Assembly: GCF_001434575.1 (NCBI RefSeq)
Contig: NZ_AZDA01000018.1
Span: 1 to 64,000 of the forward strand
Direction: 5' to 3'
Source: Loigolactobacillus bifermentans DSM 20003
GTDB taxonomy: Bacteria > Bacillota > Bacilli > Lactobacillales > Lactobacillaceae
Length of the DNA stretch: 64,000 nucleotides
Below are positions 24,772 through 25,125 of the stretch, piece by piece (positions within the stretch are counted from its first letter, which is position 1; each line of letters starts with the position of its first letter). A program made the position numbers and the translations under genes. The notes beneath the pieces are model-generated. The model made no database searches. It saw only the letters and a program-made list of their open reading frames with translations, and was not told where the DNA came from.

Positions 24772-24868
24772 AAAAAAAAGAACACCTTGGGTGAAAGGTG
24801 TTCAGGGAGAGGCGCTTTCCGGGTGAGAAAAGCGCTGAAAAATGAAAAAGGTTTGGTTTGTTTTGGTT
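24772..24868 (-). ncRNA. Candidate small RNA with C-rich loops and intrinsic terminator
   Basis: Reading the minus strand, a 9-bp hairpin (24835-24812, one mismatch) presents the loop UCACCC. A short linker contains UCUCCC. A second 8-bp hairpin (24802-24781) again presents UCACCC and is followed by C and eight U residues (24779-24772), a good intrinsic terminator. No minus-strand gene upstream would need this terminator. A -10-like TATAGT/TATAGA lies at about 24876-24885, but the -35 is poor. The three C-rich motifs complement Shine-Dalgarno-like GGGUGA and GGGAGA. This is inferred, not matched to a known family. Confidence 0.5.
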
Positions 24869-24971
24869 ACAGTCTATACTATAAAGGCAGGACATGAAAA
24901 AATACCCAGAATTCCATCATAATTCAACGAGTTTTTTCTCATTTTAAACTCATTTAATGAGGGCAGATGTC

Positions 24972-25000: not shown

Positions 25001-25019
25001 AGCAGGGTAACTAAATAAC

Positions 25020-25125
25020 GGAGTAGGCGGCGAAGCGTTAAGTGCTGATGGAACGGAATGTGAACATCAGACGAAAATAAGGCAACTTATTGCGGTTTCG
25101 CTGTCGCATTCGCCGCAAGTTTTTT
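25020..25125 (+). promoter_or_regulatory. Tetrahydrofolate (THF-I) riboswitch
   Basis: The sequence carries the conserved GCGUUAAGUG core, a CUGAUG/CAUCAG helix (25045-25050 with 25065-25070) enclosing GAACGGAAUGU, an ACGAA junction, a tetraloop hairpin AAUAAG-GCAA-CUUAUU and the 3' strand GCGGUUUCGC...CGCAUUCGCC. It precedes folT, a known THF regulon gene. The 3' part can alternatively form AACUU..GCGG / CCGCAAGUU followed by U6 (25120-25125), a terminator overlapping the aptamer. This fits ligand-dependent premature termination. Confidence 0.92.

Follow-up and report, generated by a model that had tools for sequence, protein, structure and literature searches.

The minus strand of the window, by which we mean the whole 64,000-nucleotide stretch of Loigolactobacillus bifermentans DSM 20003 DNA that was analysed, encodes a conserved, separate RNA of about 100 bases at positions 24772–24870, which the comparative evidence identifies as a real small RNA (sRNA). 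Its structure, its conservation, its own promoter and terminator signals and its family resemblance were established by computation. Together, the conservation of the sRNA, its compensated stems, its matches to Rfam families and to our models R1 and R2, and the similarity of its promoter to those of LhrC lead us to read it as a free-standing LhrC-like sRNA, roughly 100 nt long and acting in trans, directed against Shine-Dalgarno (SD) sequences, a reading that we regard as probable.

The features of the element are given in Table 1. As the first-pass annotation had noted, two hairpins follow one another on the minus strand, both with UCACCC loops, UCUCCC lies within the linker that separates them, and eight U residues come after the second; its proposal that this is a free-standing sRNA exposing unpaired C-rich motifs is also supported. 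When folded, 111 nt of the minus strand reached −24.9 kcal/mol; the 200 dinucleotide shuffles averaged −12.4 (sd 2.9), and none was as good. The plus strand folds more weakly (z −1.9). A terminator scan of 2.4 kb returned four where 3.1 are expected in shuffles, so the terminator is unremarkable taken alone, and it is established as real by its conservation. Transcription probably begins at about 24870.

Table 1. Features of the predicted sRNA and its surroundings, in window coordinates.
Feature	Position	Strand	Remarks
Predicted sRNA, whole, about 99 nt	24772–24870	−	in 7 of 8 genus genomes; fold z −4.4
U8 terminator tail	24772–24779	−	at least T7 in 7/7
Hairpin 2 (intrinsic terminator)	24780–24803	−	arms and loop GAACACCUU-UCACCC-AAGGUGUUC (24803–24780); loop at 24794–24789
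Unpaired linker CUCUCCCU, candidate anti-SD site	24804–24811	−	CUCUCCC in 7/7
Hairpin 1 (loop A position)	24812–24835	−	arms and loop GCGCUUUUC-UCACCC-GGAAAGCGC (24835–24812); loop at 24826–24821
5' single-stranded region GUAACCAAAACAAACCAAACCUUUUUCAUUUUU, 33 bases	24838–24870	−	identical in 7/7
−10 element TATAGT	24878–24883	−	by eye and conservation; relatives TATATT or TATTAT
Promoter box TTATGATGGAATTCTGGG	24905–24922	−	relatives e.g. TTCTGAGTGTATTCACGG, CTCTGATTAAAATCACGG; like LhrC promoters, at the same distance
AAAATGAG	24938–24945	−	68–75 bases upstream of start; identical in 7/7
THF riboswitch before folT	25017–25117	+	76.3 bits

By DNA search, the sRNA is present in seven of the eight Loigolactobacillus genomes compared. 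The eighth (G001) keeps galU, ansA and tsaB at the locus (L057), without folT and without the sRNA. A scan for the exact core through 84,980 genomes, with the window's own genome possibly outside it, matched five records, every one from Loigolactobacillus (binensis, iwatensis, jiayinensis, backii and zhaoyuanensis). A mobile origin was rejected: plasmids and phages gave no match in a distant blastn search, and the exact core was absent from viral contigs. We found no published work pairing Loigolactobacillus with an sRNA.

Full identity among the seven sequences begins at the predicted start site and covers the first 33 bases; this single-stranded 5' tail, to which the first-pass annotation gave little attention, is the most conserved part of the putative sRNA, and the conserved unit closes with the U-run. 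Moreover, in the alignment of the seven sequences (six distinct rows), both sides had changed in 5 of 20 aligned pairs (3/9 in hairpin 1 and 2/11 in hairpin 2), the pair cells with both sides changed numbered 10 as against 3.6 in shuffles, and 97.5% of pair cells were kept compared with 41.5–65.3% in slid controls. Five of the relatives adopt a similar fold (z −4.3 to −7.7). The expectation in the first-pass annotation of conserved hairpins, loops and T-run was borne out in part, in that the stems, the CUCUCCC linker, the CCC of the terminator loop and the U-run recur in all seven genomes, but the supposedly invariant UCACCC loops do not, being found in the window's genome and replaced in its six relatives. 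Among these, four genomes have CCCC as loop 1 and two have CGUAACU, which is poor in C, and the terminator loop of the relatives reads CGCCC or UUCCCC. C-runs occur in the linker (7/7), the terminator loop (7/7) and loop 1 (5/7), and the linker is the best-conserved candidate anti-SD site.

The conserved block is also open on the plus strand, where it could be read as a short gene starting ATGAAAAAGGTTTGGTTTGTTTTGGTTAC (MKKVWFVLVT). However, its third codon positions are invariant, full identity ends at the minus-strand start site, and downstream of the block the frame, inspected by eye, differs or stops among relatives; we rejected this small open reading frame and give it almost no weight.

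Upstream of the sRNA, on the plus strand and in the opposite direction, is folT (ECF substrate component, PF12822), preceded by GGGAGA as the first reading had it; a THF riboswitch was also seen in the G007 locus (57.5 bits). The earlier statement that no minus-strand gene lies upstream agrees with our finding that minus-strand open reading frames from the sRNA to 25888 are at most 65 aa. Downstream, and on the same strand in all seven genomes, lies ansA (asparaginase, PF00710/PF17763), and the U-run stops seven bases before the ansA −35-like TTGCAT (24764–24759, by eye), much as had been described. folT was not found in the fetched loci of four species that keep the sRNA, and outside the genus we found no shared gene neighbours.

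This constant placement before ansA would suit a 5' leader of that gene, with hairpin 2 as an attenuator read through under some condition, as would our failure to recognise by eye a clear ansA promoter in every species. However, the gap from U-run to ansA varies from 43 to 309 bases with no sequence conservation, for which reason we do not take the sRNA for an ansA leader. Moreover, G002, G004 and G006 have extra sequence inserted there, inspection by eye showed no conserved alternative pairing able to disrupt the terminator, and in the window's genome (G000) a promoter-like TTGCAT-17-TATGAT precedes ansA. We rejected the leader on the gap variation and hold it to be quite unlikely. Separately, loci L007/L061 and L011/L056 carry roughly 170–300 extra bases between sRNA and ansA, with repeats visible by eye, and these are possibly small mobile elements. 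A strong terminator directly before the ansA promoter might alternatively be a mere insulator shielding ansA from stray transcription, but this leaves the invariant 33-base 5' tail, the covariation of hairpin 1 and the upstream promoter box unexplained; rejected on these grounds, it strikes us as very improbable.

The predicted sRNA start lies 6–7 bases below the −10 element in all seven genomes, in none of which did we recognise a −35 upstream of the sRNA. A column-wise, start-anchored comparison was made with 29 distinct LhrC promoters, and for three lineages taken jointly the similarity was highest at offset +1 (0.412; offset mean 0.30, sd 0.03). With single lineages (positions −80 to −14), the peak fell at offset 0 (G003) or +1 (G000 and G006), with p ≤ 0.001 in column shuffles over 34 offsets, values that are optimistic as dinucleotides were not kept. 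For the G000 promoter without its −10, offset −10 stood marginally above +1 (0.448 versus 0.440). The 27 Ref84 promoters of family f3 showed no alignment at offset 0 and peaked at −10. The boxes at the same distance are, for example, TTCTAATTTGATTCACAG in LhrC and TTCTGAGTATATTCACGG in the sRNA. According to the Listeria study, the region upstream of −53 is important for LisR-dependent induction, and the sensitive LhrC promoter positions are −55, −57 to −59, −72, −74 and −75 (PMC4132741). We also considered whether the box (TCTGA-N6-TCAC) might be Crp/Fnr- or Rex-like, but dropped this because LhrC promoters fit better. As an observation of its own, a TTCACA-like direct repeat with an 11-base period is visible by eye just above the −10 in many of the loci L092–L110, L145, L150 and L164–L175 (for example TCGTCACAATTTCTTCACA), and it looks like the box of an OmpR-type regulator.

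To place the sRNA among known families, the window was compared with Rfam. At gathering score, the THF riboswitch was the only match in the window, and no family reached the sRNA. At lax thresholds, Ref84 (Enterococcus sRNA 84, RF02846) matched it end to end with 30.1 bits in the window, 33.8 in G007 and 26.1 in G003, which is below the gathering score of 52 bits in all three species, and was the best Rfam match at the sRNA in each of the three tried. Neither LhrC (RF00616) nor RsaE/RoxS (RF01820) was among the lax matches listed for the window; in G007 they scored 25.1 bits (gathering 110) and 11.5 bits (gathering 79, E 9.7), respectively. The sRNA thus falls outside formal membership of the LhrC and Ref84 Rfam families, though the LhrC-type comparison offered by the first-pass annotation holds up, and better so than the one with RsaE/RoxS, for which C-rich anti-SD pairing is the common point (also named in PMC4132741).

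Structurally, the sRNA has the LhrC order of hairpin A, single-stranded stretch and terminator. Shared with LhrC of Listeria are an A/C-rich 5' tail, hairpin A and a terminator with a C-rich loop, and a CU-rich stretch is AACUCCC in LhrC and ACUCUCCCC in the sRNA. Where LhrC has UCCC-type sites, the window has CCC at all three (UCACCC, UCUCCC and UCACCC). In contrast to LhrC, the sRNA occurs as one main copy with divergent paralogs, and in most species its loops are not UCCC. With Ref84 it shares a 5' (A)UAACCAACAACAACCUUUUUAUUUUUCA, a hairpin, a CUCC linker and a terminator, but differs in that Ref84 is multicopy, that the sRNA scores under gathering and that no common neighbours were found. 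Many Ref84-type sequences have CUCCUCC as the loop of hairpin 1, which is complementary to the Shine-Dalgarno consensus. E. faecalis sRNA_109 has been placed with Ref84, whose relatives a 2020 paper described as having no known function (PMC7724050). Ern0160 is another sRNA (PMC12870237), and the passages of PMC10117718 and PMC3166299 that we consulted name neither LhrC nor Ref84. Our literature searches found no published work joining Ref84 with Enterococcus faecalis, nor any joining LhrC, Enterococcus, Lactobacillus and homolog.

Across 395 genomes of the order, the Ref84 model matched 142 at E ≤ 0.1, with 54 over the cut-off and up to nine matches in one genome, and it matched none of 14 control genomes; with ten candidates scored per genome, this genome-wide search did not report G000 at E ≤ 0.1. 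Model R1, built on the seven Loigolactobacillus sequences alone, placed its best match on the Ref84 site in all 30 fetched loci, these being the top-scoring Ref84 loci (24.5–39 bits, against 14.8 for the next other match). Another 20 stretches contained 21 Ref84-type sites; R1 gave at least 23 bits at 18 of them and stayed within noise at three (L102, L108 and L111; 16.2–20.1 bits). R1 is near noise on LhrC sites, with 9.3–21.6 bits where listed and none listed for L133, while other places in the LhrC loci reach 19.5 bits and outscore the LhrC site in L115 and L141. The LhrC loci were drawn from nine of the 11 genomes in family f8; the presence of LhrC is our reason for regarding this family as Listeriaceae. 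The joint model R2 has 36 rows and includes no LhrC: five are from Loigolactobacillus and 31 are R1 matches at E ≤ 0.02 from 30 of 34 loci, with the R1-matched L067, L102, L108 and L111 excluded. Its best match was an LhrC copy in 30 of 30 LhrC loci (24.4–40.6 bits; next other match 19.6), many of which overlap or are paralogous and so are not independent. A sequence-only HMM lends partial support. When every sequence was set against 50 local shuffles of itself, 15 of 31 Ref84-like sequences and 15 of 31 from LhrC outscored 49 or more, where about one in 31 is expected; the remainder did not, and part of the apparent similarity to both is local composition.

These last results bear on whether the sRNA might be a genuine C-rich anti-SD sRNA of independent origin, its likeness to LhrC and Ref84 having converged on an A/C-rich start, a U-rich middle and CUCC motifs. 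Convergence would account for Rfam scores below threshold, for R1 being near noise on LhrC, for the share of composition in the sequence-only test and for our finding no gene neighbours in common; it sits poorly with full-length best matches that pick out all 30 Ref84 loci with R1 and all 30 LhrC loci with R2, and with a promoter resembling that of LhrC at the same distance. We consider it a real but unlikely alternative. Common descent with LhrC and Ref84 appears likely, rather than proven.

Applied to 397 genomes of the window's family, R1 returned the seven and five weak matches, whereas at E ≤ 0.01 R2 matched 28 genomes, spread over seven genera out of 40. Three of the weak R1 matches (L046, L047 and L048) are taken as chance because their genomes are not among these 28. 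R2 already contained the two best g15 matches, and the other g15 copies, g12 and g6 lay outside the model; the g8 and g14 matches look doubtful by eye. At E ≤ 1 in the eight genus genomes, R2 revealed additional copies, whose loops read CUCCUCC, CCCCUCC, CCCCCC or UUUCCCC: G002 has a tandem set of four, G003 has two and a weak third, and G004, G005, G006 and G007 have one each. None besides the main copy was found in G000, and two weak matches in G001 were judged by eye to be chance. Tandem arrays with C-rich loops (CUCCUCC, CCCCUCC and UUUCCCC) were seen at G002 C40:26635–27378 and G003 C1:63803–64124, the tandem-array loci being L168, L172, L173, L175, L171 and L164, and three of the four G002 copies have upstream sequence in common. 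R1 also finds second copies near Ref84-type sites. The best R1 match outside Loigolactobacillus is L105:2262–2364, which scores 53.5 bits and has CUCCCCC as its loop and ACUCCCC as its linker. In family f2 we noticed a second sub-type, marked by a CUCUUUUCUCCCC-type hairpin and lying near a Ref84-like copy, both at this site and at L100:2663–2757, L104:2267–2366, L110:2686–2783 and L109:1099–1200.

We lean, by a modest degree, towards regarding LhrC, Ref84 and the sRNA as branches of one old multicopy anti-Shine-Dalgarno family across Lactobacillales in the GTDB sense. Such a family would have tandem and dispersed copies, UCCC or CUCCUCC loops and promoters with direct-repeat boxes of two-component regulators, and Loigolactobacillus would hold its main copy beside ansA together with CUCCUCC-loop paralogs.

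As to mechanism, we infer that the sRNA would be transcribed from its own promoter and stopped by its own terminator, and that an OmpR-type response regulator resembling LisR probably activates it. The C-runs of the unpaired linker and the hairpin loops would then pair with the SD regions of several mRNAs, and this pairing, independent of Hfq, would block translation or destabilise the message. The 5' tail, invariant and A/C-rich, may serve as an additional pairing or protein-binding region. Hfq was not found in any of the eight genus genomes (controls positive in 5 of 14), an absence with which LhrC-type action is compatible. In Listeria, the lapB SD is bound redundantly by three LhrC UCCC sites, of which one is in loop A, one in the stretch and one in the terminator loop (PMC4132741), with oppA and tcsA as further targets (PMC8079631). 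That the sRNA works like LhrC is held with fair confidence.

Candidate targets were sought near the sRNA and beyond. The 5' tail and folT give a predicted duplex of −20.4 kcal/mol, ranking second of 53 window genes. With the 34-nt tail, folT gave −15.7 in the window, matched by 17 of 500 base shuffles, and −7.5 in the two other species with folT at the locus. folT, whose preceding GGGAGA the first-pass annotation pointed out, is not supported as a target, since those two species do not preserve the pairing predicted for the window, and folT itself was not found in the fetched loci of the four sRNA-bearing species noted above. Sequences complementary to a portion of the 5' tail showed no enrichment in the eight genomes (186 matches versus 216 for the reversed pattern). 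An oppA-type gene (PF00496) was found in five of the eight genomes, and in G000 its predicted pairing was only mildly better than the window background.

The natural changes in loops and stems among the species make the anti-SD model directly testable. If the link to LhrC and Ref84 is true, a mechanism is suggested for Ref84, and a virulence-linked sRNA regulator of Listeria would have relatives in food-associated lactic acid bacteria, where an older LhrC role, perhaps in envelope homeostasis, would be open to study in harmless strains.
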